DNA of 50,587 nt from a virus, in IMG/VR virus record IMGVR_UViG_3300034418_013526, positions 1 to 50,587 of that record. One strand, written 5' to 3'. The notes beneath the pieces were generated by a model that worked only from the letters and a program-made list of their open reading frames with translations, was not told the origin of the DNA and ran no database searches. Below, piece after piece: positions 9,093 to 18,661 of the stretch. Both the position numbers and the translations under genes were made by a program. Every line of letters begins with the position of its first letter. Positions within the stretch are counted from its first letter, which is position 1.

Positions 9093-9108
9093 TGCAAAAG
9101 CCGTGCCA
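9093..9108 (-). promoter_or_regulatory. Sigma-54-like -24/-12 site (a)
   Basis: TGGCACGGCTTTTGCA on the minus strand, with GG and GC exactly 10 nt apart. Confidence 0.6.
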
Positions 9109-9126
9109 GAACAGCCGTGCCGAGAA

Positions 9127-9142
9127 TGGCATAAGAATTGCA
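9127..9142 (+). promoter_or_regulatory. Sigma-54-like site (b)
   Basis: TGGCATAAGAATTGCA, GG-N10-GC. Faces site (c) with only TA between their TGCA ends, giving a 34-bp imperfect dyad centred on TTGCATATGCAA. Confidence 0.6.
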
Positions 9143-9144
9143 TA

Positions 9145-9160
9145 TGCAAAAACCGTGCCA
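9145..9160 (-). promoter_or_regulatory. Sigma-54-like site (c)
   Basis: TGGCACGGTTTTTGCA on the minus strand; the same 16-mer occurs at 10922, 15159 and 18452. Confidence 0.65.
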
Positions 9161-9167
9161 AAACACT

Positions 9168-9183
9168 TGGCATGAATCTTGCA
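9168..9183 (+). promoter_or_regulatory. Sigma-54-like site (d)
   Basis: TGGCATGAATCTTGCA; identical 16-mer on the minus strand at 10041. Its TTGGCA can pair with TGCCAA of site (c). Confidence 0.6.
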
Positions 9184-9311
9184 TAAAAATGTAAGTTATT
9201 GATTTTGCGTAAAGATATGTAACCTCCTGTTTTTATTGATGCGCCCAGAATCCTTGGCACTTTCTAAGAGTTACCACGATTTTAAATTTCAGTCAAGCCA
9301 TTTTTTTGATA

Positions 9312-9327
9312 TGCAAAAGTCGTGCCA
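9312..9327 (-). promoter_or_regulatory. Sigma-54-like site (f)
   Basis: TGGCACGACTTTTGCA on the minus strand, 12 nt upstream of the TTGACA at 9339. Confidence 0.6.
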
Positions 9328-9338
9328 AAAAATAATTA

Positions 9339-9367
9339 TTGACAAATTTATTTTTTACCTGTATACT
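9339..9367 (+). promoter_or_regulatory. TATACT-type promoter P1
   Basis: TTGACA, 17-bp spacer, TATACT followed by TCC. No gene starts within 250 nt. Confidence 0.75.
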
Positions 9368-9391
9368 TCCGAAAATAATTTGTTTTTTTTC

Positions 9392-9420
9392 TTGACAGTG
9401 TTGGTTTTGTCATATATACT
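9392..9420 (+). promoter_or_regulatory. TATACT-type promoter P2
   Basis: TTGACA, 17-bp spacer, TATACT. Followed 16 nt later by site (g). Confidence 0.75.
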
Positions 9421-9435
9421 TCGCCCGTGCGCCCA

Positions 9436-9451
9436 TGCAAGAAATGTGCCA
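9436..9451 (-). promoter_or_regulatory. Sigma-54-like site (g)
   Basis: TGGCACATTTCTTGCA on the minus strand, GG-N10-GC. Confidence 0.6.
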
Positions 9452-9568
9452 AAAATCGGCCATTTTTTTTGCCTCAACTTACAGTATACAGAAAGAAAGT
9501 GCTCTCGTCAACCCCTTTTTTTAATTAAAAATAAAATTAATTCTTTAAAATTTTTATTGAATTAATAG

Positions 9569-9597
9569 TTGACACAACTTCCCACTTGCGTTAATAT
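9569..9597 (+). promoter_or_regulatory. Promoter for 9630..10040
   Basis: TTGACA, 17-bp spacer, TAATAT, 32 nt before the ATG. Confidence 0.85.
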
Positions 9598-9629
9598 GTA
9601 GGTGGGAATAAAGAACAGGAGGATAACCC

Positions 9630-10040
9630 ATGAATATTTCACAACAAGTAGTAATTTTGAGTGCTGAAAATACTAAACTCACACCGGAACAAAACTGTCA
9701 GCGCACAAAAATTTTAAAGCATTGTCTGGAGGATTGTAACCTGCTTTTCGGAGAATCTTTAGGGATGTATAAGGGAGAACCCGAAACATCATTTGTAGTC
9801 ATTATCAATAATTCTCATGACTTGCAAGCACTGAAGGACTTTGCTTTTAAAAATTTTAATCAGGAATCAATTCTGTACCAAGATGCTAATCAAGAAGCGC
9901 ATCTTATTTTTAACAATGGTGCAGAGGAACGACTCGGACGATTAGAAGAAGTAACCGAAGAAGAAGCTCGTAAACATAATGCGTTTACATTGTTTAGTGG
10001 GCGTTATTACGTTACAAAACAAAGGCAACTAGGACATTAA
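9630..10040 (+). CDS. DUF3293-like phage protein
   Basis: 136 aa after CAGGAGG. The order 'ILSAENTKLTPEQN...R...L...L', then GEPETSFVVI, then FNQESILYQDANQEAHLIF, matches the DUF3293 pattern (A.NP....N...L..L....G..E.SF.v...FgQ.av). Function of the family unknown. A monocistronic cassette: own promoter and terminator. The stop codon is followed directly by sigma-54-like site (h). Confidence 0.6.
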   Translation: MNISQQVVILSAENTKLTPEQNCQRTKILKHCLEDCNLLFGESLGMYKGEPETSFVVIINNSHDLQALKDFAFKNFNQESILYQDANQEAHLIFNNGAEERLGRLEEVTEEEARKHNAFTLFSGRYYVTKQRQLGH

Positions 10041-10056
10041 TGCAAGATTCATGCCA
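10041..10056 (-). promoter_or_regulatory. Sigma-54-like site (h), also a hairpin arm
   Basis: TGGCATGAATCTTGCA on the minus strand, starting right after the TAA of 9630..10040. Its ATTCATGCCAAG can pair with CTTGGCTTGAAT at about 10073 (12 bp, one mismatch). Confidence 0.6.
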
Positions 10057-10096
10057 AGTTTTCTCATTTCCTTGGCTTGAATTATTCCTCCATGAG

Positions 10097-10121
10097 AGCA
10101 GGGTGAAAACCCTGCTTTTTT
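10097..10121 (+). terminator. Intrinsic terminator
   Basis: AGCAGGGT, GAAA loop, ACCCTGCT, then TTTTT. Perfect 8-bp stem. Confidence 0.9.
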
Positions 10122-10133
10122 GGTTTTTACTTT

Positions 10134-10161
10134 AGTATATCAAAAATCACAAAAAACACAA
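10134..10161 (-). promoter_or_regulatory. Leftward TATACT-type promoter M1
   Basis: Minus strand TTGTGT, 16-bp spacer, TATACT. Would transcribe antisense into the terminator and end of 9630..10040. Confidence 0.55.
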
Positions 10162-10205
10162 GCCCTTGTGTAATATTTTCATATAGGTAAATTTTACAGG
10201 GGGTA

Positions 10206-10234
10206 TTGTGCATCAGGACGACTTATGATATACT
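10206..10234 (+). promoter_or_regulatory. TATACT-type promoter P3
   Basis: TTGTGC, 17-bp spacer, TATACT followed by CCC; 24 nt before site (i). Confidence 0.65.
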
Positions 10235-10257
10235 CCCGTCTTTTCCAGTGCCAGAAT

Positions 10258-10273
10258 TGGCACGATTCTTGCA
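10258..10273 (+). promoter_or_regulatory. Sigma-54-like site (i)
   Basis: TGGCACGATTCTTGCA, an exact TGGCACG-N4-TTGCA consensus. Overlaps the perfect inverted repeat GTGCCA-GAAT-TGGCAC. Upstream of 10359..10910. Confidence 0.7.
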
Positions 10274-10305
10274 AGAAAAAAAGTGCGAAATAATCAAAAT
10301 AGTGC

Positions 10306-10334
10306 TTGCAATTGCAGGCACATTGCTTTACAAT
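10306..10334 (+). promoter_or_regulatory. Promoter for 10359..10910
   Basis: TTGCAA, 17-bp spacer, TACAAT, 25 nt before the ATG. Confidence 0.6.
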
Positions 10335-10358
10335 AAATACACTAGCAAGGAGGAAACA

Positions 10359-10910
10359 ATGCTAATTCAAGAAATTAAATTAAACAACGGTGAAAAACTA
10401 GAAATTTACCACGACGAAGGTTGTTTTGACCCTAGAAAAGAATTTGACAACGTGACTGAAATGATTTTCTTTCACAATAGAATGAACGTGGGCGACAACC
10501 ATGACATTGACCCTGACAATTATTCTAGCTTTGCAGGCATGATGAATGAAAATGTAAAAGACGGTGACTTGGCAATGCCAGTATTCTGTTACTCTAAACG
10601 ATGTTTTGAGTTGTCTTTAACTCCTTTTTCATGCCCGTGGGATAGTGGGACTCTTGGCTTTATTGTAGTCAGGAAAGCTACGATTGACTATGAATTCGAT
10701 GGAGATAGAGAAAAAGCATTGAGAAATCTAAAGGCAGAGCTAAACACTTACAACGACTATCTAAACGGACGCACTTATGGCGGCATTATGTACGATGCTG
10801 AAGGACATGAGATTGACGCTTGTTGGGGCTTCTATGGCAATGACTTTGAAGAGAATGGTATCTATGACAATTTTGGTATAAACAAAAATAATATAGTGGA
10901 GGTAGCATGA
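10359..10910 (+). CDS. Conserved phage/plasmid protein (FSCPWDSG family)
   Basis: 183 aa from ATG 10359, which follows AAGGAGG; the frame is open from 10206, but that stretch contains the promoter. Motifs MIFFHNRMNVGD, SLTPFSCPWDSGTLGFIVV and the C-terminal IDACWGFYGNDFEENG are the signature of a widely distributed phage and plasmid family of unknown function. Likely cytoplasmic, predicted alpha/beta. Single-gene cassette with sigma-54-like sites on both sides. Confidence 0.8.
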   Translation: MLIQEIKLNNGEKLEIYHDEGCFDPRKEFDNVTEMIFFHNRMNVGDNHDIDPDNYSSFAGMMNENVKDGDLAMPVFCYSKRCFELSLTPFSCPWDSGTLGFIVVRKATIDYEFDGDREKALRNLKAELNTYNDYLNGRTYGGIMYDAEGHEIDACWGFYGNDFEENGIYDNFGINKNNIVEVA

Positions 10911-10914
10911 AATA

Positions 10915-10937
10915 GGCACGGTGCAAAAACCGTGCCA
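10915..10937 (-). promoter_or_regulatory. Sigma-54-like site (j) inside a perfect hairpin
   Basis: Minus-strand TGGCACGGTTTTTGCA (10922-10937). The strand also folds as GGCACGG, 8-nt loop, CCGTGCC (10915-10936). No T-run follows, so it is not a simple terminator. Lies 5 nt after the stop of 10359..10910. Confidence 0.6.
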
Positions 10938-10939
10938 AA

Positions 10940-10989
10940 TCCACATACCTTATTCCACATAGTATACACGAATAATTCCACATACACAA
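10940..10989 (-). promoter_or_regulatory. Leftward TATACT promoter M2 with three TCCACATA boxes
   Basis: Minus-strand TTGTGT (10984-10989), 17-bp spacer, TATACT (10961-10966). TCCACATA boxes at 10940, 10954 and 10977 overlap the spacer and start region, so a binding protein would block it. The transcript would begin just before site (j). Confidence 0.65.
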
Positions 10990-11015
10990 GAGGAAAAATA
11001 AATTAAAAAAACTTG

Positions 11016-11044
11016 TTGACATATTGGGTTAATTGATTTAATAT
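11016..11044 (+). promoter_or_regulatory. Promoter for 11074..11391
   Basis: TTGACA, 17-bp spacer, TAATAT (overlapping TATAAT). Confidence 0.85.
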
Positions 11045-11073
11045 AATATTAACAAAGCATTAAGGAGGAAACA

Positions 11074-11391
11074 ATGCGAAACACACAAAACCTAGCAGAC
11101 TTCGGCTATAGAGAAAGAGAAGAAGCGGCAAAGCTATTGTCATCACTTGGAACGTCAAAGGATAAAACTAAATATTTTGGCGACAGAGGTGTAGCGGTGG
11201 AATTTAACCCATATAGCACTTACGTTTTTTTAGTTGATGAGGATTACAATGTTGCTATGCTAAATGTTGACGATGAACTAGAGGACTTTCACACTTGCCC
11301 TAATTGTGGCGGTGAGGGACTAGCCTCAGACTTTAGGGAAGACAACACGGACGAATGTTGTCATGAATATGCAGACGAATTAAATATTTAG
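11074..11391 (+). CDS. Small protein with one CxxC pair
   Basis: 105 aa after AAGGAGG. Residues about 71-98 contain CPNCGGEGLASDF, then ECCHEYADE, which may bind a metal through C-x-x-C plus C-C-H. N-terminal half YREREEAAKLLSSLG is helical. Not recognised. Followed by hairpins at its stop and at 11435. Confidence 0.75.
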   Translation: MRNTQNLADFGYREREEAAKLLSSLGTSKDKTKYFGDRGVAVEFNPYSTYVFLVDEDYNVAMLNVDDELEDFHTCPNCGGEGLASDFREDNTDECCHEYADELNI

Positions 11392-11434
11392 GGGAGTTGT
11401 TAACCCCTAAACTCCTTGGTTAGTATTGGTTGGG

Positions 11435-11467
11435 TTGGCACGGATATTGCATCTGTGCCAACTTTTT
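11435..11467 (+). terminator. Terminator containing sigma-54-like site (k)
   Basis: TTGGCACGGA, 7-nt loop TATTGCA, TCTGTGCCAA, then CTTTTTC: a 10-bp stem with one G-U. The left arm and loop together are TGGCACGGATATTGCA (11436-11451), a full GG-N10-GC match on the plus strand. Confidence 0.75.
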
Positions 11468-11532
11468 CTGGCATCTAAGAGTTACCATAAATCACACACT
11501 TTGTCAACATAAAAAATAAATTATTTTTTTAT

Positions 11533-11561
11533 TTGTGTTTTTTGTTTTTTTAATGTATACT
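11533..11561 (+). promoter_or_regulatory. TATACT-type promoter P4
   Basis: TTGTGT, 17-bp spacer, TATACT, then TCCC; 22 nt before site (l). Confidence 0.6.
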
Positions 11562-11582
11562 TCCCAAGTTTGGCATTTTTCT

Positions 11583-11598
11583 TGGCATGGTTCTTGCA
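11583..11598 (+). promoter_or_regulatory. Sigma-54-like site (l)
   Basis: TGGCATGGTTCTTGCA. A second TTTGGCA lies 12 nt upstream as a partial direct repeat. Confidence 0.6.
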
Positions 11599-11644
11599 TA
11601 AAAAACAAAATGCAAAATTGCCCTTTTTTCAAGCACTTACAATT

Positions 11645-11673
11645 TTGACAGGGTGGGTGGGATATGCTACTAT
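11645..11673 (+). promoter_or_regulatory. Promoter for 11702..11917
   Basis: TTGACA, 17-bp spacer, TACTAT with TGC just before it; initiates near ATTAAC. Confidence 0.75.
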
Positions 11674-11701
11674 TAATTAACACTTAACAAGGAGAAAAAA
11701 A

Positions 11702-11917
11702 ATGAACACAAACGAAAAATTGGAAATCTTCAGAAAACTTTACTGCCTTGGTCTTTCAGACATTGAAAAGGTGTTTGAGGGTTCAGGGTTGGAGGAACAC
11801 CTCTCTAGCACTTACATGAGAAGTCGTGACGAACATGGCTTTTATGGCAACTTTCACTTTCTCTTTCAGCTTGACTTAGAAAACGCTGAAAAACTCCTGA
11901 AGAGGATAGGGCTGTAA
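11702..11917 (+). CDS. Small hypothetical protein
   Basis: 71 aa after AAGGAG. Helical N-terminus (MNTNEKLEIFRKLYCLGLSD) with a compact C-terminal LENAEKLLKRIGL. Not recognised. Its TAA stop lies in the loop of a 7-bp hairpin (TAGGGCT-GTAA-AGCCCTA, 11907-11924). Confidence 0.7.
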   Translation: MNTNEKLEIFRKLYCLGLSDIEKVFEGSGLEEHLSSTYMRSRDEHGFYGNFHFLFQLDLENAEKLLKRIGL

Positions 11918-11929
11918 AGCCCTACCTCA

Positions 11930-11969
11930 AAAACCATGCCAAGAAATGTCTCCCTCTTGGCATGGTTTT
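11930..11969. terminator. 15-bp perfect hairpin
   Basis: Arms 11930-11944 and 11955-11969 are perfectly complementary and end in TTTT. The left arm carries ATGCCAAG and the right arm CTTGGCAT, the same half-site as the sigma-54-like family but without TTGCA. Confidence 0.8.
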
Positions 11970-11980
11970 AACAGCATATA

Positions 11981-12009
11981 AGTATACATTAAAAAACATA
12001 AAAGCACAA
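11981..12009 (-). promoter_or_regulatory. Leftward TATACT-type promoter M3
   Basis: Minus strand TTGTGC, 17-bp spacer, TATACT. Points into the 11930-11969 hairpin. Confidence 0.6.
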
Positions 12010-12034
12010 TCCCAAAAATAAATTAATTATTTTC

Positions 12035-12063
12035 TTGCGTTATTAGTTGAGATATGCAATAAT
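12035..12063 (+). promoter_or_regulatory. Promoter for 12095..12280
   Basis: TTGCGT, 17-bp spacer, AATAAT, with TATGC before the -10. Confidence 0.5.
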
Positions 12064-12094
12064 TTTATATAACCCAATCAAACGGAGGAAAAAA

Positions 12095-12280
12095 ATGCAA
12101 AGATTAAGAATAAAAATTGAAAAAGAAAACGGTGAATTTTTAGATGAAATTATGGTTTATGATGAAACTACTTTGACAGAAGATGAAGCCGAAAATTTAG
12201 ACTTTGACCCTGATGCTGTTGAAATTTCAGAAGTCGATTACTGGATTAAAAAAGCGTTTAAAATAATGGAGGAATTTTAA
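12095..12280 (+). CDS. Small acidic protein
   Basis: 61 aa from ATG 12095, preceded by CGGAGG; the in-frame 12047 start lies inside the promoter. Beta-rich N-terminus (MQRLRIKIEKENGEFLDEIM) and an acidic helix TLTEDEAENLDFDPD. Not recognised. Followed after 1 nt by 12282..12506. Confidence 0.7.
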   Translation: MQRLRIKIEKENGEFLDEIMVYDETTLTEDEAENLDFDPDAVEISEVDYWIKKAFKIMEEF

Positions 12281-12281
12281 A

Positions 12282-12506
12282 ATGCACTTAAAACTACACT
12301 ATGACGGTACTAAACTGTATTCTTATGAATGGTCTAGGGTGATACCTCTTTATAGATTGCATTATTATGTCAGAGAAGAGGGATATACCTTTGAAGTGGT
12401 AAACAAAAAAGGTAAAGACTTAACTAAAAAATATTTATGCAAACTTGCCTCGATGCAATTAGAAAATTATTCTTCAGATGATCTTTATTTTATGATAAAA
12501 AAATAA
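12282..12506 (+). CDS. PHA/PHB-accumulation-regulator-like small protein
   Basis: 74 aa. GTKLYSYEWSRVIPLYRLHY followed by YVREEGYTFEVVNKKGKDLT and KKYLCKLASMQLEN follows the order of the N-terminal DNA-binding domain of polyhydroxyalkanoate regulators (K-LY.T..S.Y..L.....lv..G..F.V.d.k.g.DlT...L). The call is from memory and the identity is modest. It could be a phage DNA-binding protein with that fold. Start overlaps the previous stop region with weak GGAGG at -14. Confidence 0.45.
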   Translation: MHLKLHYDGTKLYSYEWSRVIPLYRLHYYVREEGYTFEVVNKKGKDLTKKYLCKLASMQLENYSSDDLYFMIKK

Positions 12507-12528
12507 GGGGAATTTTTCCCTACATTTT

Positions 12529-12557
12529 AGTATATAGAAAAAAATACTAAAGCACAA
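12529..12557 (-). promoter_or_regulatory. Leftward TATACT-type promoter M4
   Basis: Minus strand TTGTGC, 17-bp spacer, TATACT. Points to the 3' end of 12282..12506. Confidence 0.55.
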
Positions 12558-12592
12558 GAAGAAAAAAAAGTTTTTTTATATGTCGATTTTTC

Positions 12593-12621
12593 TTGTGTTT
12601 TATTGCGTTATGCTTTACAAT
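12593..12621 (+). promoter_or_regulatory. Promoter for 12652..13128
   Basis: TTGTGT, 17-bp spacer, TACAAT with TATGCT before it. Confidence 0.7.
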
Positions 12622-12651
12622 ACTATTAACCAATAACCAACGGAGGAAAAA

Positions 12652-13128
12652 ATGGGTTTAGATATGTATTTAAGTAGAAAAATTTATGTAGGTGCTAATT
12701 ACGACTTTAATGGCGTTCAAGGCACTATTAAGCTAACTCGCAAGGGTTACGACAGAGAAAATGAAACGGTTATTGAGAAAGAACCGATTAAAATCAATTT
12801 CAAAAAGGTGACTGAAATCACTGAAGAGGCGATGTATTGGCGTAAAGCCAATGCTATTCACAATTGGTTTGTCGAGCAATGTCAAGAAGGGCGTGATGAA
12901 TGTCAAGAGGTTTATGTACCCAGAGAAAAGCTCGAAGAACTTATGAATTTATGCAATCAAGCGGTTAAAGAGAAGGATGGCACGATTCTTGCACCAACAG
13001 CAGGCTTTTTCTTTGGCTCAACAGACACCGATGAATATTATTTTGAAATGCTTAAAGACACAGCAAAGGAGTTAAAGAAAATTCTCAAAGACGATAGGGG
13101 AGACTTCTATTATCAATCAAGCTGGTAA
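12652..13128 (+). CDS. Conserved phage protein (MGLDMYL family)
   Basis: 158 aa after CGGAGG. Begins MGLDMYLSRKIYVG and contains EEAMYWRKANAIHNWFVEQ and APTAGFFFGSTDTDEYYFEM, the signatures of a widespread phage protein of unknown function. Length is typical. Own promoter; ends before a GGGGGC-GTAA-GCCCCC hairpin (13135-13150). A sigma-54-like 16-mer, TGGCACGATTCTTGCA (12978-12993), lies within the coding sequence. Confidence 0.8.
   Translation: MGLDMYLSRKIYVGANYDFNGVQGTIKLTRKGYDRENETVIEKEPIKINFKKVTEITEEAMYWRKANAIHNWFVEQCQEGRDECQEVYVPREKLEELMNLCNQAVKEKDGTILAPTAGFFFGSTDTDEYYFEMLKDTAKELKKILKDDRGDFYYQSSW
12978..12993 (+). promoter_or_regulatory. Sigma-54-like site (s), inside a gene
   Basis: Identical to site (i) at 10258. 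It encodes part of KDGTILAP, so it may be coincidence or a co-opted site. Confidence 0.35.
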
Positions 13129-13214
13129 CAGTGAGGGGGCGTAAGCCCCCAATATCAGGTAGGCCTAGTCGGGTCAGTAAATGGCATGGGTGTAATGTGC
13201 CAGCCTGACCTTAA

Positions 13215-13243
13215 AGTATACACGAAGAAAAACACGCCGTCAA
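13215..13243 (-). promoter_or_regulatory. Leftward TATACT-type promoter M5
   Basis: Minus strand TTGACG, 17-bp spacer, TATACT. Downstream is TGGCA-N11-TGCCA (inverted repeat, 13182-13202). Confidence 0.6.
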
Positions 13244-13269
13244 CCATTTTATTAATTTATTTTTTGTTG

Positions 13270-13299
13270 TTGACAGAATTTTATCTTTCGTATTATAAT
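13270..13299 (+). promoter_or_regulatory. Promoter for 13328..13987
   Basis: TTGACA and TATAAT with an 18-bp spacer. From TATAAT through the first ten bases of the gene (13294-13337) it is identical to 14912-14955. Confidence 0.9.
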
Positions 13300-13327
13300 A
13301 TCATTAACACTAACCATAGGAGGAAAT

Positions 13328-13987
13328 ATGGAAAAGATATTAGGTCAAGAACAATACGGTGCTATCATTATGGCAGAGATGAAAGGTAATAAAATAGAAT
13401 CTATCTCATCTGGCTATATTGAACACTCAGACAACACTTATGACGGTAACACTTACTTATCGAAAAGCTCATGGGGCGGTGCTTACACCGACTTTCAAGG
13501 GAACAAGTTTGAAAGAGGCATGGAACTCCCTGAAGACTTCACGCCTGCCTTCCAAGACGAGGGAGCAGAACAGATTATGCTCGAAGAAGACTATTATCAC
13601 GCTGAAGGTCATCACTGTGAAGAGTGCGGTACTTTTCACGACACAGAACAATATTATGACGTATCATTCGTAATTACAGAATACGGTGGTTTCTACTGTA
13701 AAACTTGTGTGCCTGCTGAAGAGCTTCTAGTTGAGGTCACTGAGGGTGAGGATATTTTTAGAAGTAAAGACATGGTGGGAACTGAAGTCCCAGAGAACTT
13801 TGAAGAGGTCGAAACACTTTTCTGTGATTCATCGGGGTTTGGCAGTACAACAGAAAGAGCATTGACCAAAGAGCAAGCAATAAGACGCACGGAAGAGCTT
13901 ATAGACGAGCATGGAACGCTTTATTCAGGACTGACAGGGATAGGTCAGTTTCAAGTATATGTGACACTTTACAGGGAAGTAGAGTAA
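13328..13987 (+). CDS. Putative zinc-binding hypothetical protein
   Basis: 219 aa after TAGGAGG. A C-x-x-C pair in HHCEECGTFHD (residues about 97-107) and another in GGFYCKTCVP (about 121-130) probably form a zinc site. The C-terminus includes TKEQAIRRTEELIDEHGTLY, helical. Not recognised. Single-gene cassette with a strong promoter and terminator, so probably abundant early. Confidence 0.75.
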   Translation: MEKILGQEQYGAIIMAEMKGNKIESISSGYIEHSDNTYDGNTYLSKSSWGGAYTDFQGNKFERGMELPEDFTPAFQDEGAEQIMLEEDYYHAEGHHCEECGTFHDTEQYYDVSFVITEYGGFYCKTCVPAEELLVEVTEGEDIFRSKDMVGTEVPENFEEVETLFCDSSGFGSTTERALTKEQAIRRTEELIDEHGTLYSGLTGIGQFQVYVTLYREVE

Positions 13988-13993
13988 AACAAT

Positions 13994-14015
13994 AGGGGCG
14001 AAAGCCCCTTTTTTT
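13994..14015 (+). terminator. Intrinsic terminator
   Basis: AGGGGC, GAAA, GCCCCT, then T-run; 7 nt after the stop. Confidence 0.95.
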
Positions 14016-14016
14016 G

Positions 14017-14045
14017 TTGACACTGTTAAAAATAGCGTGTATACT
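14017..14045 (+). promoter_or_regulatory. TATACT-type promoter P5
   Basis: TTGACA, 17-bp spacer, TATACT, immediately after the terminator. TCCACATA (14053) and site (m) follow. Confidence 0.8.
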
Positions 14046-14063
14046 CCCATAATCCACATACAT

Positions 14064-14079
14064 TGGCACGAACTTTGCA
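14064..14079 (+). promoter_or_regulatory. Sigma-54-like site (m)
   Basis: TGGCACGAACTTTGCA, an exact TGGCACG-N4-TTGCA consensus with no hairpin partner nearby; followed by TATAAAA. The cleanest candidate for a real sigma-54 promoter here. Confidence 0.7.
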
Positions 14080-14092
14080 TATAAAATAGTTG

Positions 14093-14124
14093 TTGACAAT
14101 ATAATCCACATATTATATTATAAT
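14093..14124 (+). promoter_or_regulatory. Promoter for 14143..14421 with TCCACATA in the spacer
   Basis: TTGACA (14093) and TATTAT/TATAAT (14116-14124); TCCACATA lies at 14105-14112 between them. Confidence 0.75.
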
Positions 14125-14142
14125 ATTAACAACGGAGGATAT

Positions 14143-14421
14143 ATGATTTATTTAATGCAAATTATGGGTATGTTAAACAAAGAAGAAAGGACGGACTTAA
14201 TCCACATACTAGAAGACTTATCTTTTGAACTAGAAGAAATGGGTTGGAACAGCGATCCAGAAGGATTAATTAGCGATATTTTATTTAACCATTTTGGGTT
14301 TGAAATGGAAGACCCTAAACAATTGACTTGGTTGACTGATTGGGTGTTAGAAAAACAGAACTCTCCTCAATCTTTTAAAGCATTACTCACAACAGTCAAC
14401 CTACAAAAAGGAGAGGCGTAA
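14143..14421 (+). CDS. Helical hypothetical protein
   Basis: 92 aa after CGGAGG. Helical and acidic (MLNKEERTDLIHILEDLSFE, ISDILFNHFGFEMEDP). Not recognised. The TAA stop is in the terminator loop (14412-14433). Confidence 0.75.
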   Translation: MIYLMQIMGMLNKEERTDLIHILEDLSFELEEMGWNSDPEGLISDILFNHFGFEMEDPKQLTWLTDWVLEKQNSPQSFKALLTTVNLQKGEA

Positions 14422-14433
14422 GCCTCTTTTTTT
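14412..14433 (+). terminator. Terminator with the stop codon in its loop
   Basis: AGAGGC, loop GTAA, GCCTCT, then TTTTTT. The TAA of 14143..14421 is in the loop. Confidence 0.95.
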
Positions 14434-14470
14434 ATTGTTTTTTTTAAAAAACTGTGCTATACTCATGGGC

Positions 14471-14495
14471 AAAAAGAAAGGGGCGATTGCCCCTT
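14471..14495 (-). terminator. Terminator of the leftward HTH gene
   Basis: Minus strand AAGGGGC, loop AATC, GCCCCTT, then TCTTTTT. Confidence 0.85.
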
Positions 14496-14498
14496 GGT

Positions 14499-14711
14499 TT
14501 AGCGGTATTCGGCGTTGAGTACAACTCTATCGCCTACTAGGGTGAACACAGCAGGTCGCTGATCGGTTGGTTGGGAAAACTCAGCAAGAATTTTATAGGT
14601 TTGTGACCTAGACTTGCCAATGGCTTGCACCACTTCTTTTTTGTGAAGTATCTGATGCGGTGTATTTCTAAGTAATACAATAATGTTCAAAATAGTATCA
14701 GTTTTTGTCAT
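14499..14711 (-). CDS. Small winged-HTH-like regulator
   Basis: 70 aa after TAGGAGG. Residues about 20-45 (HKKEVVQAIGKSRSQTYKIL) look like a helix-turn-helix, and the end VFTLVGDRVVLNAEY could be a wing. It is the only leftward gene among the rightward cassettes between 5.6 and 18.1 kb and has its own promoter and terminator. A TCTCA-TATTT-TGAGA dyad overlaps its promoter, suggesting autorepression. Candidate controller of the repeated operator sites, by position only. Confidence 0.65.
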   Translation of the reverse strand: MTKTDTILNIIVLLRNTPHQILHKKEVVQAIGKSRSQTYKILAEFSQPTDQRPAVFTLVGDRVVLNAEYR

Positions 14712-14727
14712 GTTACCTCCTAATGGA

Positions 14728-14756
14728 ATTATCTCATATTTTGAGAATTAAGTCAA
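14728..14756 (-). promoter_or_regulatory. Promoter and candidate operator of the HTH gene
   Basis: Minus strand TTGACT, 17-bp spacer, GATAAT. Inverted repeat TCTCA-TATTT-TGAGA lies at about 14732-14746, inside the -10 and spacer. Confidence 0.75.
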
Positions 14757-14791
14757 CAAAAATCGACACACAAAAAAACTTTTTTTTAATA

Positions 14792-14820
14792 TTGTGCTTT
14801 CTATTTTTGTATGATATACT
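14792..14820 (+). promoter_or_regulatory. TATACT-type promoter P6
   Basis: TTGTGC, 17-bp spacer, TATACT; 21 nt before site (n). Divergent from the HTH gene promoter. Confidence 0.65.
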
Positions 14821-14840
14821 CGCAAAGTGTGGTAAAAACT

Positions 14841-14856
14841 TGGCATAAAACTTGCA
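14841..14856 (+). promoter_or_regulatory. Sigma-54-like site (n)
   Basis: TGGCATAAAACTTGCA, no hairpin partner. The following TGCGAAATAAT (14876 region) is shared with the sequence after site (i). Confidence 0.65.
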
Positions 14857-14888
14857 TACAAAAAAATGCGAAATAATGAAAAAATATC

Positions 14889-14917
14889 TTGTGTTATTTT
14901 CCGAGATGCTTTATAAT
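14889..14917 (+). promoter_or_regulatory. Promoter for 14946..15158
   Basis: TTGTGT, 17-bp spacer, TATAAT. The 14912-14955 segment duplicates 13294-13337. Confidence 0.85.
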
Positions 14918-14945
14918 ATCATTAACACTAACCATAGGAGGAAAT

Positions 14946-15158
14946 ATGGAAAAGAGAACGGAAATTAAAATTGTACAAAAAAATGCAGTATTTTTTGAGG
15001 CAGTAGTTAAGCACAAAACTAAAAGCTACACAAAGACTTTAACTCAAGATAATTTACAGTCTTTGCAGATTGACCTTGATGTGTGGTTAAAGTGTGGAAA
15101 TTATGAGCTAGTATCAGCCGAGAAAGTGGAACGTGTAAGCTGTAAGCTGATAGCATAA
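14946..15158 (+). CDS. Small hypothetical protein
   Basis: 70 aa from ATG 14946 after TAGGAGG; the longer frame from 14889 covers the promoter. Beta-rich N-terminus (TEIKIVQKNAVFFEAVVKHK). Shares only its leader and first three codons with 13328..13987. Function unknown. The stop is followed at once by site (o). Confidence 0.7.
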   Translation: MEKRTEIKIVQKNAVFFEAVVKHKTKSYTKTLTQDNLQSLQIDLDVWLKCGNYELVSAEKVERVSCKLIA

Positions 15159-15193
15159 TGCAAAAACCGTGCCAAGGAAGGTGCAGGTTTTTT
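15159..15193. terminator. Imperfect terminator carrying sigma-54-like site (o)
   Basis: Minus-strand TGGCACGGTTTTTGCA at 15159-15174. On the plus strand AAACC-G-TGC pairs with GCA-GGTTT, followed by a T-run: a bulged terminator. Confidence 0.6.
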
Positions 15194-15197
15194 ATTG

Positions 15198-15226
15198 TTG
15201 ACAATATAACCCACATAAGGCATAAT
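15198..15226 (+). promoter_or_regulatory. Promoter for 15258..15434
   Basis: TTGACA, 17-bp spacer containing CCCACATA (15210), CATAAT. Confidence 0.75.
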
Positions 15227-15257
15227 AACTATAGAACCTAACAAAAGGAGAGAAAAA

Positions 15258-15434
15258 ATGGATAGATATGAAAAAAATGGTTATGATAACAGAAAACATT
15301 ATCTCAATTGTTTAGCAGAGGATTTTGGAATAGAAAAATCAGTGGTTTACGAAATGGCATCTATTCTAGGTCAAAATGAGGACTTCGATGGGCTAGTAAC
15401 GACAGTTGAGGATTATGTAGACGGTTATCTATAA
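15258..15434 (+). CDS. Small acidic protein
   Basis: 58 aa after AGGAGAG. MDRYEKNGYDNRKHYLNCLA then EDFGIEKSVVYEMASILGQN; helical, acidic at the end (EDYVDGYL). Resembles short phage proteins of unknown function. Confidence 0.7.
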   Translation: MDRYEKNGYDNRKHYLNCLAEDFGIEKSVVYEMASILGQNEDFDGLVTTVEDYVDGYL

Positions 15435-15450
15435 TCCTTGGTTAGTGTGT

Positions 15451-15488
15451 TGCAAGAACCGTGCCAACTTGGTGCGGTTCTTCTTTTT
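15451..15488. terminator. Terminator carrying sigma-54-like site (p)
   Basis: AAGAACCG (15454) pairs with CGGTTCTT (15475-15482), then CTTTTT. The minus strand of 15451-15466 is TGGCACGGTTCTTGCA. Confidence 0.75.
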
Positions 15489-15494
15489 GAGAGA

Positions 15495-15523
15495 AGTATA
15501 CACCACAAATCCATATAGCACAA
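15495..15523 (-). promoter_or_regulatory. Leftward TATACT-type promoter M6
   Basis: Minus strand TTGTGC, 17-bp spacer, TATACT. Back to back with the rightward promoter at 15550. Confidence 0.65.
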
Positions 15524-15549
15524 CCATTATATTAATTTATTTTTTGTTG

Positions 15550-15578
15550 TTGACAGCTATCGCCAAAAATGCAATAAT
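15550..15578 (+). promoter_or_regulatory. Promoter for 15607..15951
   Basis: TTGACA, 17-bp spacer, AATAAT with TGC before it. Confidence 0.8.
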
Positions 15579-15606
15579 GACTTAACACTAACATATTGGA
15601 GGAAAT

Positions 15607-15951
15607 ATGAATTTAGTAAACAGACCATCAGTAGGTGAAACAAACGGACTCTTAGACGGTCACAAATACCACAGTGAGTTCACAGCAAATATACAGCGTC
15701 AAGTACCTTGGACAGCCGAGGGACTAAAAATAACACGCCTGAGACTACTCTCAGACCACGGCTTTCCATTTTGGGAGGTTAGTTATTGTCATGGCGTATT
15801 AAATGGCGAACCTGTAGAGGTTATTTTGCCTTTTAGTGAGTTACCAAAGAAAAATAGAAATAGAGCTATCGTAAAATATGCCATTAAAGATGGCATATTT
15901 GCGAAGGGGCTAGGGATTCTCTCCCCCCTAGTCCAAAGTACCCTCTGTTAG
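15607..15951 (+). CDS. Conserved phage/plasmid small protein
   Basis: 114 aa after TGGAGG. Residues about 40-85 (ITRLRLLSDHGFPFWEVSYC, HGVLNGEPVEVILPFSELPK) match a recurring family with SD.GFP.W.VSYCHG...G.PV.V.LPF..LP, of unknown function. The last 16 residues differ from what I recall and run through a GC-rich repeat (GGGGCTAGGG...CCCCCTAG). Own promoter and terminator. Confidence 0.7.
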   Translation: MNLVNRPSVGETNGLLDGHKYHSEFTANIQRQVPWTAEGLKITRLRLLSDHGFPFWEVSYCHGVLNGEPVEVILPFSELPKKNRNRAIVKYAIKDGIFAKGLGILSPLVQSTLC

Positions 15952-15958
15952 TGTGTTC

Positions 15959-15995
15959 GAGGGGCAGTAAAAAAAATGCTGCCCCTCATTTTTTT
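15959..15995 (+). terminator. Intrinsic terminator
   Basis: GAGGGGCAG, 11-nt A-rich loop, CTGCCCCTC, then ATTTTTTT. Perfect 9-bp stem. Confidence 0.95.
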
Positions 15996-15997
15996 AT

Positions 15998-16026
15998 TTG
16001 ACACGACAGCCGACCCGTGCAATAAT
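15998..16026 (+). promoter_or_regulatory. Promoter for 16050..16202
   Basis: TTGACA, 17-bp spacer, AATAAT, starting 3 nt after the T-run. Confidence 0.8.
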
Positions 16027-16049
16027 GGTATTAACGAAACGGAGGAAAT

Positions 16050-16202
16050 ATGGAAACACTAATCGAAAAAATCAACGAACTAGAAATTAAAGCCAAGGTC
16101 TACTCTGACAACTACGGCCCTAACTCTGATGAGGTAAAGGCAATTGACCAACAAATTGCTAAAATTAACCTAGAAATACTTGACATCATGTGTCCCGAAT
16201 AA
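16050..16202 (+). CDS. 50-aa coiled-coil protein
   Basis: METLIEKINELEIKAKVYSD ... IDQQIAKINLEILDIMCPE. CGGAGG before the ATG. Heptads at both ends suggest a helical hairpin. The TAA stop is in the terminator loop. Confidence 0.7.
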   Translation: METLIEKINELEIKAKVYSDNYGPNSDEVKAIDQQIAKINLEILDIMCPE

Positions 16203-16215
16203 GGGACACTTTTTT
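16190..16215 (+). terminator. Terminator with the stop codon in its loop
   Basis: GTGTCCC, loop GAATAA, GGGACAC, TTTTTT. TAA of 16050..16202 ends the loop. Confidence 0.95.
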
Positions 16216-16216
16216 C

Positions 16217-16245
16217 TTGTGTTTTTTGCTTTTGTCGTGTATACT
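16217..16245 (+). promoter_or_regulatory. TATACT-type promoter P7
   Basis: TTGTGT, 17-bp spacer, TATACT. Followed by TTGGCACGG (16263) and a perfect 9-bp hairpin ACGGTAAAC-CAATA-GTTTACCGT (16267-16289). The TTGGCACGG lacks the -12 TTGCA. Confidence 0.6.
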
Positions 16246-16289
16246 CTCCCAATGTGGAGAGTTGGCACGGTAAACCAATAGTTTACCGT

Positions 16290-16318
16290 AGTATATCACG
16301 CAAAACGTGCAAGCACCA
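16290..16318 (-). promoter_or_regulatory. Leftward TATACT-type promoter M7
   Basis: Minus strand TGGTGC, 17-bp spacer, TATACT. Converges on P7 with the 9-bp hairpin between them. Confidence 0.45.
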
Positions 16319-16353
16319 GAAGAAAAATAAATTAATTAAAGTGCATTATTTTG

Positions 16354-16382
16354 TTGACTCAAAATTCGAGATGCTTTATAAT
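16354..16382 (+). promoter_or_regulatory. Promoter for 16410..16595
   Basis: TTGACT, 17-bp spacer, TATAAT. 16372-16398 is repeated exactly at 16612-16638. Confidence 0.8.
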
Positions 16383-16409
16383 TTCATTAACACTAACAGG
16401 GAGATTCAA

Positions 16410-16595
16410 ATGAAAAATTCAAGAAAAAAAGACGCTAAAAAAATGGAACTACTAACTAGAGTTCTGAATAGACAATTGAAAGAGGGTAAAAAAGACTCTA
16501 ATTTCAATAGACGTTTAGATGAATGGTGTAAGTTGCACGATATACTAGCCAATGAAAGACCGCTTAAAAATATTTCTTTAACAAAAAGGGCATAA
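16410..16595 (+). CDS. Small basic protein
   Basis: 61 aa from ATG 16410 after GGGAG; the frame from 16254 crosses the promoter. Basic N-terminus (MKNSRKKDAKKMELLTRVLN), helical, possibly nucleic-acid binding. The TAA stop is exactly the 3-nt loop of the terminator. Confidence 0.7.
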   Translation: MKNSRKKDAKKMELLTRVLNRQLKEGKKDSNFNRRLDEWCKLHDILANERPLKNISLTKRA

Positions 16596-16607
16596 TGCCC
16601 TTTTTTT
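16583..16607 (+). terminator. Terminator whose loop is the TAA stop codon
   Basis: AAAAAGGGCA, loop TAA, TGCCCTTTTT and more T. Perfect 10-bp stem. Confidence 0.95.
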
Positions 16608-16611
16608 GTTG

Positions 16612-16638
16612 TGCTTTATAATTTCATTAACACTAACA
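16612..16638 (+). promoter_or_regulatory. Extended -10 promoter, duplicated leader
   Basis: TGCTTTATAAT (-10 16617-16622) with no good -35, identical over 27 nt to 16372-16398. Confidence 0.65.
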
Positions 16639-16651
16639 CGGAGATAAAAAA

Positions 16652-16942
16652 ATGCTAACAGTAAACGGACACACTTTGAACATTGAGAGACATTTTTACA
16701 TGGACGAACTTGAAGAGACTTACTTCGAGGTTAAAAAACCTTGTGGCAACTATTGTCATATGGATTGGTCAGGTTGGGGCGCACAGCCGACTTCTAAGGA
16801 CTTTGCACTATGGATTGAGCTTGGATATCCAGACAGGCATCACGCTGCCTTAGAAGCTAAAAGAGAGGCTACAGGCATCAAGGTTTACTCGCCGCTTGAT
16901 AGCAAAGATTTACAAACAATTAAAGAGTACGAGGGGCGATAA
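16652..16942 (+). CDS. Hypothetical protein
   Basis: 96 aa after CGGAGA. Aromatic middle with two cysteines and a histidine (KKPCGNYCHMDWSGWGAQPT), then an amphipathic end. Not recognised. The stop TAA lies in a GGGGC-GATAA-GCCCC hairpin (16932-16948). Confidence 0.75.
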   Translation: MLTVNGHTLNIERHFYMDELEETYFEVKKPCGNYCHMDWSGWGAQPTSKDFALWIELGYPDRHHAALEAKREATGIKVYSPLDSKDLQTIKEYEGR

Positions 16943-16999
16943 GCCCCTGTATTTATAAGGTGATTTTCTTAGGGCAGTAAACTTAAAAGGAGAGGAAGA

Positions 17000-17212
17000 A
17001 TGAAATTATCACAAATTAAAAAACAAATGTCAGACTTTGAATTAAGAACTTACTACCTTCATAAAAGAGCTAGTATTTTAACGGAATGTTACGATGACGA
17101 TTGGGATGAAAACTTAAAAAATTTTTTATCAGCTTTTGTTGATCTTAAAGAAGAGATAGAAGAGGAATACGGAGGTACATTTCCACACCTACTAGGACTA
17201 AAGGAGATTTAA
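17000..17212 (+). CDS. Small acidic protein
   Basis: 70 aa after AGGAGAGGAAGA; the same 15-nt leader precedes 17225. MKLSQIKKQMSDFELRTYYL, then an acidic helix. No terminator before the next gene, so the two are co-transcribed. Unknown. Confidence 0.7.
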   Translation: MKLSQIKKQMSDFELRTYYLHKRASILTECYDDDWDENLKNFLSAFVDLKEEIEEEYGGTFPHLLGLKEI

Positions 17213-17224
17213 AGGAGAGGAAGA

Positions 17225-17509
17225 ATGAAGTCATTTTCCGAATACTCTGAAATTTGGAACAAATTGCATTGTGAGTGGATAGATAAAAGGAATAATGCAA
17301 TGGCGGATTATTGCGAGAATCTCATTTTAGAGGCTAAAAAAGCCTATTACGACACAGGAAATCCTATTATGTGCGATGCGTATTATGATAGCTTAGAATG
17401 GAAACTTAAAACACTAAGACCGGACAGTGAGGTTTTAGAAAAGGTGCGGAGCTTAGAAATCAAGAGCTTCTCAACGCTCAACAGCTTGAGGATGGCATTA
17501 AACAAATGA
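17225..17509 (+). CDS. NAD-dependent DNA ligase Ia-domain-like protein (apparently frameshifted)
   Basis: 94 aa as read in frame. Residues about 33-73 (LILEAKKAYYDTGNPIMCDA, YYDSLEWKLKTLRPDSEVLE) match the Ia domain of NAD-dependent ligase LigA: YY....P..sD..YD.L...L..L. In LigA this domain binds NMN. Ligase catalytic domains are absent, so this is a stand-alone fragment of the kind some phages carry. After an A_AAG at 17440-17443 the in-frame tail looks random, while the -1 frame gives a plausible C-terminus ending at 17574 in a hairpin loop; the shifted product would be about 116 aa. Confidence 0.65.
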   Translation: MKSFSEYSEIWNKLHCEWIDKRNNAMADYCENLILEAKKAYYDTGNPIMCDAYYDSLEWKLKTLRPDSEVLEKVRSLEIKSFSTLNSLRMALNK

Positions 17510-17574
17510 TGTTATACGGTGCCACCACCAGAGAACAGGCATTTAGATGGCTTGAGGATTCAGGGAGATACTAA
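17443..17574 (+). other. -1 frame continuation of the ligase-domain gene
   Basis: Reads GAELRNQELLNAQQLEDGIK then QMMLYGATTREQAFRWLEDS and GRY, a well-formed helical end. Its TAA (17572-17574) sits in the loop of CAGGGAG-ATACTAA-CTCCCTG (17561-17581), as for other genes here. It could also start on its own at ATG 17506 (22 aa, ATGA overlap). Confidence 0.5.
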
Positions 17575-17618
17575 CTCCCTGATATCAGGGCAAAAACGAA
17601 GATAGTTTAAAATAACTA

Positions 17619-17646
17619 TTGTAATTCACTGGCAGTATGCTATTAT
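17619..17646 (+). promoter_or_regulatory. Promoter for 17681..17857
   Basis: TTGTAA, 16-bp spacer, TATTAT with TATGC before the -10. Confidence 0.55.
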
Positions 17647-17680
17647 TAGATTATAGAAACACACAAACAAAGGGAAACAA

Positions 17681-17857
17681 ATGAACGAAAGAACAGAAAA
17701 ACTAATCACTGAAAACGTACAAATGGAAGTTGCTTTAAAAATTATCAACAACTATCTTAATGCCGATGCAAGCGATAAAATTAAACTCAAGCTCGTAACA
17801 AAGGAACTTGAGGAGATTCAAGAAAAGATAGGAAGAAAGTTTTTAGAGAGGGCTTAA
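17681..17857 (+). CDS. 58-aa helical protein
   Basis: MNERTEKLITENVQMEVALK ... ELEEIQEKIGRKFLERA, after AGGGAAAC. Likely coiled coil. The stop is in the loop of GGGCT-TAAC-AGCCCC-like bases. Confidence 0.6.
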   Translation: MNERTEKLITENVQMEVALKIINNYLNADASDKIKLKLVTKELEEIQEKIGRKFLERA

Positions 17858-17882
17858 CAGCCCCTCTAAGGAGGCTAATAAC

Positions 17883-17954
17883 ATGGTACAACTATTTTCT
17901 AAACTTTTAATCGTCTTATACATGGTATCAATGATTCAGGAGAGTTTTTTATGA
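17883..17954 (+). CDS. Putative 23-aa membrane peptide
   Basis: MVQLFSKLLIVLYMVSMIQE then SFL. AGGAGG is 8 nt before the ATG. The stop overlaps the next ATG (ATGA). Confidence 0.5.
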   Translation: MVQLFSKLLIVLYMVSMIQESFL

Positions 17955-18076
17955 GCAAGTCAACCGCTATCTTTTTATTTACGATCGGCTATTTAATTTA
18001 TATTGGTTACGTTGTCACGCAAGTATCTGAAAGGATTAATAAAATAAAAACAATAACCATAACCAATAAACAATAA
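17951..18076 (+). CDS. Putative 41-aa membrane protein
   Basis: MSKSTAIFLFTIGYLIYIGY followed by VVTQVSERINKIKTITITNK. One membrane helix with a basic tail. AGGAG at -13 lies within the previous ORF. Two coupled membrane peptides next to each other could act on the host envelope. Confidence 0.55.
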   Translation: MSKSTAIFLFTIGYLIYIGYVVTQVSERINKIKTITITNKQ

Positions 18077-18112
18077 CAATTATATATAATACTAATATAT
18101 ATAATTATATAT

Positions 18113-18233
18113 AGGCGTAGGAACTGACTCACCGCCCCACCGGACACCGCCCCACCGTTCAGCATCACTGGACATCGTAGCAAAAAAATACCGCCAACAA
18201 TTCTTGTCAGTTCCTATGCCTCATATTGTTGGC
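18113..18233 (+). ncRNA. Candidate structured RNA with mutually exclusive stems
   Basis: 18113-18128 pairs with 18206-18221 over 16 bp (one G-U). 18193-18201 (GCCAACAAT) pairs perfectly with 18225-18233 (ATTGTTGGC), enclosing the 3' arm of the first stem, so the two compete or form a pseudoknot. Between them is a 13-nt direct repeat (18130-18142, 18145-18157). Much more GC-rich than its surroundings and without an ORF. It is followed by AAAAAGT-TGGC-ACTTTTT, terminator-like. Confidence 0.5.
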
Positions 18234-18327
18234 ACTCACTCCTGCCACAAAAAGTTGGCACTTTTTCTACTGACTATTCTTTAGACAGGTGTATAATTTT
18301 TTGACAGTATTTTTTTTAATTATGTTG

Positions 18328-18356
18328 TTGACAGTGCAGAGTTCTATCTGTATACT
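18328..18356 (+). promoter_or_regulatory. TATACT-type promoter P8
   Basis: TTGACA, 17-bp spacer, TATACT. Followed by three AAAGCCAAAACC-like repeats and site (q); no gene follows. Confidence 0.75.
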
Positions 18357-18398
18357 GTAATGTAAAGCCAAAACCAAAAGCCAAAACCTAAAGCCATA

Positions 18399-18414
18399 TG
18401 GCATATATATTGCA
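18399..18414 (+). promoter_or_regulatory. Sigma-54-like site (q)
   Basis: TGGCATATATATTGCA, GG-N10-GC. Confidence 0.55.
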
Positions 18415-18451
18415 TATACAATACTGATGCCACACAGGGGGGAGGGGGTCA

Positions 18452-18467
18452 TGCAAAAACCGTGCCA
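18452..18467 (-). promoter_or_regulatory. Sigma-54-like site (r)
   Basis: TGGCACGGTTTTTGCA on the minus strand, the last member of the family in the window. Confidence 0.6.
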
Positions 18468-18577: not shown

Positions 18578-18648
18578 GGGTCCCATATATAGAGGGTGGG
18601 TCCCTTTTTTATTTTTTAGGGTCCCATATTGGGTCCCATACGGGTCCC
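18578..18648. repeat. Five GGGTCCC repeats
   Basis: GGGTCCC at 18578, 18598, 18619, 18631 and 18642, three followed by ATA. GGAGTCCC flanks at about 18480 and 18665. The region separates convergent transcription units and carries no gene. Confidence 0.75.
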
Positions 18649-18661
18649 TTTAAAAAATTTT

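Follow-up and report, generated by a model that had tools for sequence, protein, structure and literature searches.

Arrays of sigma-54-like sites mark a candidate control element in diverse environmental phages

A 9.5 kb region of one phage genome is studded with near-perfect copies of a short DNA word that resembles the binding site of the bacterial sigma factor sigma-54. The genome is IMG/VR record IMGVR_UViG_3300034418_013526, and the window analyzed here is its whole 50,587-nucleotide stretch. Between 9.0 and 18.5 kb lie about 20 tiny genes, nearly all on the plus strand, which leave the region about 60% coding; tail and baseplate genes follow from 21 kb onward. The first gene past the leftmost group of sites (cluster 1 in the table), at 9630..10040 (+), encodes an S-adenosylmethionine (SAM) lyase (PF23780, E 1.9e-22). 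Because SAM lyases of this family are a known kind of early anti-restriction gene, we infer that 9.0–18.5 kb is an early region. The SAM lyase family is diverse in phages, and in several other phages its members lie no more than a few hundred bases from such sites. All 15 matches of the window to the pattern TTG-N20-TATACT, found on both strands, are confined to 9.36–18.35 kb. Several of these promoters aim into the 3' ends of the region's almost exclusively plus-strand genes, where antisense RNA is possible.

The sites form a dense and exclusive cluster. Exact matches to TGGCAYN5TTGCA number 18 in the 50.6 kb window, nine on each strand, and all fall within 9093–18467; the reversed pattern has none. 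Allowing one mismatch gives 20 matches, compared with a mean of 2.4 (largest 7) in shuffled sequence, and together the shuffles and the reversed-motif controls rule out a chance origin. One of the two additional matches, 18417- (TTGTA), is paired with 18399+; the other, 41778+, is likely a chance match. Only 12978+ lies inside a plausible gene, the other exact sites being extragenic. A first-pass annotation, made from the letters alone, had listed 18 such sites, placed all but one of them outside genes and likened them to the sigma-54 consensus; our exact scan returns the same positions and strands and no further site in the window.

An independent matrix likewise picks out these sites. We built it from 50 intergenic Escherichia coli sigma-54 sites, mapped by chromatin immunoprecipitation sequencing (ChIP-seq) and printed in PMC4591121. 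Window-wide, the 18 sites occupy ranks 1–18, with scores of 16.4–22.5; the median for E. coli's own sites is 17.0. At a score of at least 14, the 9.5 kb region holds 18 matches and the remaining 41 kb two, so that the concentration described in the annotation, which an even density in such a scan would have undone, is borne out. With GG and GC 10 nt apart and a consensus of TGGCAC-N5-TTGCW, the window sites have the form of sigma-54 -24/-12 elements.

Sites and promoters share a recurring geometry. A site typically lies 24–37 nt downstream of the -10 element of a sigma-70-type promoter (TTGNNN-N17-TATACT), on the same strand. Eight window sites begin 24–48 nt past a TATACT start on the same strand and one does so on the opposite strand. 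Inverted clusters of sites occupy either end of the 9.0–18.5 kb region, and two tail-to-tail pairs are separated by TA (9127+/9145- and 18399+/18417-). Three sites (11436+, 15159- and 15451-) are built into terminator-type hairpins. The first-pass annotation had overlooked these TA-separated pairs, the 15 TATACT promoters, the hairpin sites and the GGGGGGAGGGGG tract beside cluster 2. Shortly past cluster 2, at about 18585–18655, lie GGGTCCC repeats (gggtcccatat...gggtccc), which are also present in a close relative of the window phage, G061.

Table. Sigma-54-type sites, sigma-70-type promoters and associated features of the window
Feature	Position	Strand	Detail
Cluster 1	9093..9183	.	sites 9093-, 9127+, 9145-, 9168+
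Sigma-54-type site TGGCACGACTTTTGCA	9312..9327	-	
Promoter TTGACA-N17-TATACT, sigma-70-type	9339..9367	+	
Promoter TTGACA-N17-TATACT	9392..9420	+	
Site TGGCACATTTCTTGCA	9436..9451	-	flanked by convergent TATACT promoters 9415+ and 9488-
Promoter TTGACG-N17-TATACT	9483..9511	-	
Site TGGCATGAATCTTGCA	10041..10056	-	abuts stop codon of SAM lyase gene 9630-10040
Promoter TTGTGC-N17-TATACT	10206..10234	+	
Site TGGCACGATTCTTGCA	10258..10273	+	29 nt past start of TATACT 10229+
Site TGGCACGGTTTTTGCA	10922..10937	-	29 nt past TATACT 10966-
Promoter TTGTGT-N17-TATACT	10961..10989	-	
Site TGGCACGGATATTGCA	11436..11451	+	5' arm of 11-bp hairpin, then CTTTTT
Promoter TTGTGT-N17-TATACT	11533..11561	+	
Site TGGCATGGTTCTTGCA	11583..11598	+	27 nt past TATACT 11556+
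Site TGGCACGATTCTTGCA	12978..12993	+	within open reading frame 12652-13128
Promoter TTGACA-N17-TATACT	14017..14045	+	
Site TGGCACGAACTTTGCA	14064..14079	+	24 nt past TATACT 14040+
Helix-turn-helix (HTH)-like protein, as read in the first-pass annotation, 70 aa	14499..14711	-	no PHROGs or Pfam match
Promoter TTGTGC-N17-TATACT	14792..14820	+	
Site TGGCATAAAACTTGCA	14841..14856	+	26 nt past TATACT 14815+
Site TGGCACGGTTTTTGCA	15159..15174	-	in terminator-type hairpin
Site TGGCACGGTTCTTGCA	15451..15466	-	in terminator-type hairpin; 34 nt past TATACT 15500-
Promoter TTGTGC-N17-TATACT	15495..15523	-	
Promoter TTGACA-N17-TATACT	18328..18356	+	
Cluster 2	18399..18467	.	sites 18399+, 18417- (one mismatch), 18452-
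GGGGGGAGGGGG tract	18437..18448	+	adjoins cluster 2; sole G4+AG4+ of window; single in G061 too

Relatives of the window phage conserve the sites. G061 (IMGVR_UViG_3300005747_000012, 129 kb) shares about 97% nucleotide identity in matched blocks and 93% over the aligned early region; it carries 15 sites in the corresponding 8.0–17.2 kb and just two scattered matches elsewhere. Where a site is common to both genomes, substitutions are confined to the spacer or preserve purine/pyrimidine class, and core bases are retained. G061 keeps 9093, 9145 and 9168 of cluster 1, and 9127+, alone among the shared sites, is degraded. The intergenic segment that holds 11583+ in the window is exchanged in G061 for one with a minus-strand site; the presence of a site is therefore kept even without its orientation. 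The promoter-site arrangement is also retained in G015, a more distant family member with many proteins 60–80% identical. Sites following TATACT are on the same rather than the opposite strand by 5 to 2 in G015 and 7 to 2 in G061; for the window and G015 together, the small sample of sites 6–60 nt downstream of TATACT divides into 13 same-strand and 3 opposite (one-sided P 0.011). Among cultured phages, the closest relative found is Myxococcus phage Mx1, with 33–42% identity in three proteins.

The motif is not confined to this family. Many environmental phages of diverse kinds carry TGGCAYR-N4-TTGC in inverted pairs and in arrays with helical phasing, a distribution beyond the view of the first-pass annotation. 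The tail-to-tail palindrome TGGCAN6TTGCATATGCAAN6TGCCA is present at 14 IMG/VR loci and at none in 257 Gb of bacterial and archaeal genomes, and a looser inverted pair occurs at at least 120 loci in viral contigs, against one for the reversed-motif control. In the same 257 Gb a comparable relaxed pair was found only 12 times, and at least four of the 12 are near-perfect hairpins (chance or of the repetitive extragenic palindromic, REP, type). The single convincing array from a bacterial genome lies on a short contig of a metagenome-assembled genome (L381, Verrucomicrobiia). The missing palindrome and the rarity of the relaxed form rule out the arrays as bacterial features. Because the exact palindrome is absent from these genomes, there is also no sign of prophages among the array phages. 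Terminase-related cultured phages lack arrays, a BLAST search with one array region against cultured phages gave no match, and such arrays are not described in the open-access literature searched.

Arrays in these other phages have a regular architecture and a preferred place. Sites alternate in orientation, with preferred tail-to-tail GC-to-GC gaps of 3–7 bp and head-to-head gaps of 6–10, 16–21 and 26–27 bp, about one helical turn apart. Using terminase and gene calls from simple open reading frame finding, we recognized terL in 41 listed contigs among 96 nonredundant array groups, and the array lies upstream of the terL start in 41/41, typically by 1–3 kb and often between divergent gene blocks. 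The terminase adjacency of a packaging (pac/cos) site is thus seen in all 41 of these contigs and not in the window family, whose sites are instead dispersed over an early region; in G061, terL is tens of kb distant from the sites. The large terminase of G061 itself is apparently split (99.5–109.7 kb, L462), with a nuclease part at 100466–101941, an ATPase part at 107687–109678, and a homing endonuclease gene (101923–104172) and a groEL gene between them. A dispersed motif also occurs in a phage of 56% GC (L390 16300–19800, G037). There, one strand carries 13 sites within 3 kb, and a long tract rich in G and CRP-like TGTGA-N6-TCACA sites accompany them.

Other sequence elements gather near the arrays. 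G runs are enriched 4.4-fold (56/96 loci) and G4AG4 tracts 7.9-fold, and sigma-70 promoters are enriched too, as are, in some loci, NtrC-, Fur- and LacI-type operator-like palindromes. The window carries no NtrC-, Fur- or LacI-type site, though it has the G tract at 18437. The NtrC-type sequence TGCACC-N5-GGTGCA adjoins arrays in two other phages and is absent from the rest of about 1.67 Mb; the window, G061 and G015 have none. On contig L259, at about 800–1100, five NtrC-type sites (TGCACCACATTGGTGCA and variants) and a Fur-like box lie beside an array upstream of terL. Low GC or poly-T content does not account for the motif, which occurs in contigs of 34–66% GC. Neither is an RNA hairpin the common element: the spacers of paired sites are mostly non-complementary, and G061 retains site 10258 but has lost the hairpin near it.

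Tolerance to change in the phage motif follows that of sigma-54 sites. Across the 96 phage groups, position 7 is a purine in 96% and position 16 is A or T in 92%, neither of which the search demanded; because the motif itself served to find the loci beyond the window's relatives, its uniformity across phages is partly by construction. One-mismatch variants depart from the consensus at positions 1, 4 (C to T), 7 and 12 and spare GG and TGC, which are important and seldom deviating positions in sigma-54 sites (PMC4591121). This position-specific pattern resembles that of known sigma-54 sites. The variants are distributed over many loci, as a single conserved recognizer would lead one to expect. 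Judged by sequence, the DNA specificity of the phage element is sigma-54-like.

No phage-encoded recognizer common to the array phages emerged. The sigma-54 DNA-binding domain (PF04552) is present in 0/50 array-phage contigs, and no protein family occurs in more than 14 of 31 array-phage genomes, the widest being family A DNA polymerase (14/31). The simplest common recognizer is therefore a host factor, with sigma-54 the obvious one. The HTH-like protein at 14499, which the first-pass annotation had put forward as a candidate binder, is restricted to the window's own clade, while the motif extends to a 60–80%-identical relative and to many unrelated phages that yielded no such protein; the HTH-like protein is unlikely to be the general binder. 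Elsewhere in the window, 31951–32496 (-) encodes a putative lipoprotein with an HExxH motif (HELEHC), zinc-peptidase-like and without a PHROGs match, which has relatives in six other array-bearing phage contigs, and 237–818 (-) has a C-terminal match to an Imm5-like putative immunity protein (PF21805).

We tentatively favor, at somewhat less than an even chance, bound host sigma-54 holoenzyme as a roadblock or decoy at the phage sites over binding by a phage protein. This explanation starts from the observed sites, their specificity and conservation, their placement relative to promoter motifs and their strong enrichment in phages. Host sigma-54 would be the most likely binder, and its binding would most likely block or titrate. 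Sites 24–37 nt past a -10 in the same orientation would span transcript positions of roughly +12 to +45. There, host RNA polymerase-sigma-54 would bind as a stable closed complex, inactive without an activator, and the bound holoenzyme would impede or ration sigma-70-dependent transcription, both of early genes and of their antisense partners. With so many copies close to consensus, the sites would also take up host sigma-54, with titration as a possible by-product. A roadblock or docking role is favored because RNA polymerase-sigma-54 at promoters stays transcriptionally inactive until an enhancer-binding protein acts (PMC3844500, PMC4591121) and because repression by sigma-54 has been reported where its site overlaps another promoter (PMC4591121).

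Several findings weigh against sigma-54 as a roadblock or decoy. Phage sites are stricter than real E. coli sigma-54 sites at positions 5, 7 and 12. Mx1 has no exact site, and its one-mismatch matches do not rise above control. The sigma-54 activator domain (PF00158) is present in 0/50 array-phage contigs and absent from the window, though host activators could serve. Given the footprint of a closed complex, tail-to-tail GC gaps of 3–7 bp leave scant space for two holoenzymes. Intragenic sigma-54 sites in E. coli, moreover, show no roadblock effect (PMC4591121).

Some of these points would suit a different binder. The sites may be operators of a putative phage-encoded, two-domain DNA-binding protein that shuts down early genes in the manner of stoperators, their likeness to sigma-54 sites being convergence; we regard this as a serious but doubtful alternative. 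L5-type phages carry more than 20 asymmetric, transcription-oriented 13-mers in promoters and short intergenic gaps (PMC9283540, PMC6550527), bound by a repressor monomer with two domains (PMC9283540). Asymmetry, intergenic placement and orientation recur here, in 18 sites that are nearly all intergenic and oriented with promoters. The inverted pairs and helically phased head-to-head gaps would suit a compact cooperative protein, site specificity is tighter than that of sigma-54, and the element is strongly restricted to phages. However, no candidate protein common to the array phages was found at the sensitivity used, and the 14499 protein is limited to its clade. L5 motifs drift between related phages (PMC6550527), whereas one motif here spans very different, albeit motif-selected, phages, and convergence on exactly the preferences of sigma-54, at about 12 positions, is improbable. 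Placement near terL raises another alternative, that the clusters are nucleoprotein sites of DNA metabolism, either iteron-like parts of an origin or small-terminase sites at the start of packaging. Besides the 41/41 upstream positions, often between divergent gene blocks, it draws on the G runs and G4AG4 tracts enriched near arrays (the window's sole G4AG4 tract abuts cluster 2), DnaA boxes enriched about 4-fold near arrays in five loci, sites at the GC-skew minimum in G017 and near it in G022, and the family A DNA polymerase in 14/31 genomes. We nonetheless consider it quite improbable: the window family has its sites scattered across 9 kb and associated with promoters, with terL tens of kb off in G061, and small terminase subunits are generally too diverse for one common 15-bp word.

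Productive promoters fit least. Sigma-54 promoters working in tandem with the sigma-70 promoters, and giving additional transcripts, either late or controlled by nitrogen or stress, would explain the consensus match and the orientation shared with the upstream promoter, and NtrC-type sites beside arrays in two other phages are in keeping with them. Half of the window sites, however, oppose genes, and paired sites face each other and overlap. Moreover, the window, G061 and G015 are free of NtrC-type sites, and no phage activator was found in 50 contigs; enhancer types other than NtrC's have no common consensus (PMC3844500). We hold such promoters to be very unlikely. From the first-pass annotation, host sigma-54 and a phage-protein operator stay as the main readings; the many short transcripts remain conjecture.

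The motif clusters in unrelated phages point to a virus-specific control element that was previously undescribed. A broader and, as a whole, unlikely possibility is a widespread virus-specific 'sigma-54 trap', in which near-perfect site arrays in many phage lineages, joined in some by NtrC-, Fur- and LacI-type operator-like sites, would dock or titrate host regulators. Such a trap would silence the host's sigma-54 program and time early transcription of the phage. If the binder is host sigma-54, many kinds of phage would share a new way to exploit or disarm the nitrogen and stress sigma factor. If a phage protein reads the word instead, uncultured phages hold a conserved regulator that awaits discovery and whose binding site is already known. 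In both cases the motif offers a short DNA signature for a regulatory hub in phage genomes that otherwise lack annotation.

The element shares features with four known kinds of site and departs from each. Iteron-type origins are also repeat arrays, and some phage arrays have DnaA boxes and G tracts nearby; unlike iterons, the phage repeats are inverted rather than direct and are dispersed in the window, and no initiator gene was recognized. Cohesive-end or packaging repeats bound by small terminase, such as the lambda cosB R sites, are likewise short repeats in two orientations upstream of terminase genes, whereas the present motif is common to unrelated phages and, in the window family, is dispersed over promoters. 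The stoperators of cluster A mycobacteriophages, bound by the L5 repressor, resemble the window in their roughly 20 asymmetric, mostly intergenic and transcription-oriented sites; here the word is a different one of 15–16 bp, a single motif extends across very different phages, and no repressor is identified. Compared with the -24/-12 elements of sigma-54 (RpoN) promoters, the phage copies are dispersed or set in inverted, helically phased arrays, have a tighter consensus and in half of cases face away from genes, yet they share TGGCAYR-N4-TTGCW, the 10-nt distance from GG to GC and the same change-intolerant bases.

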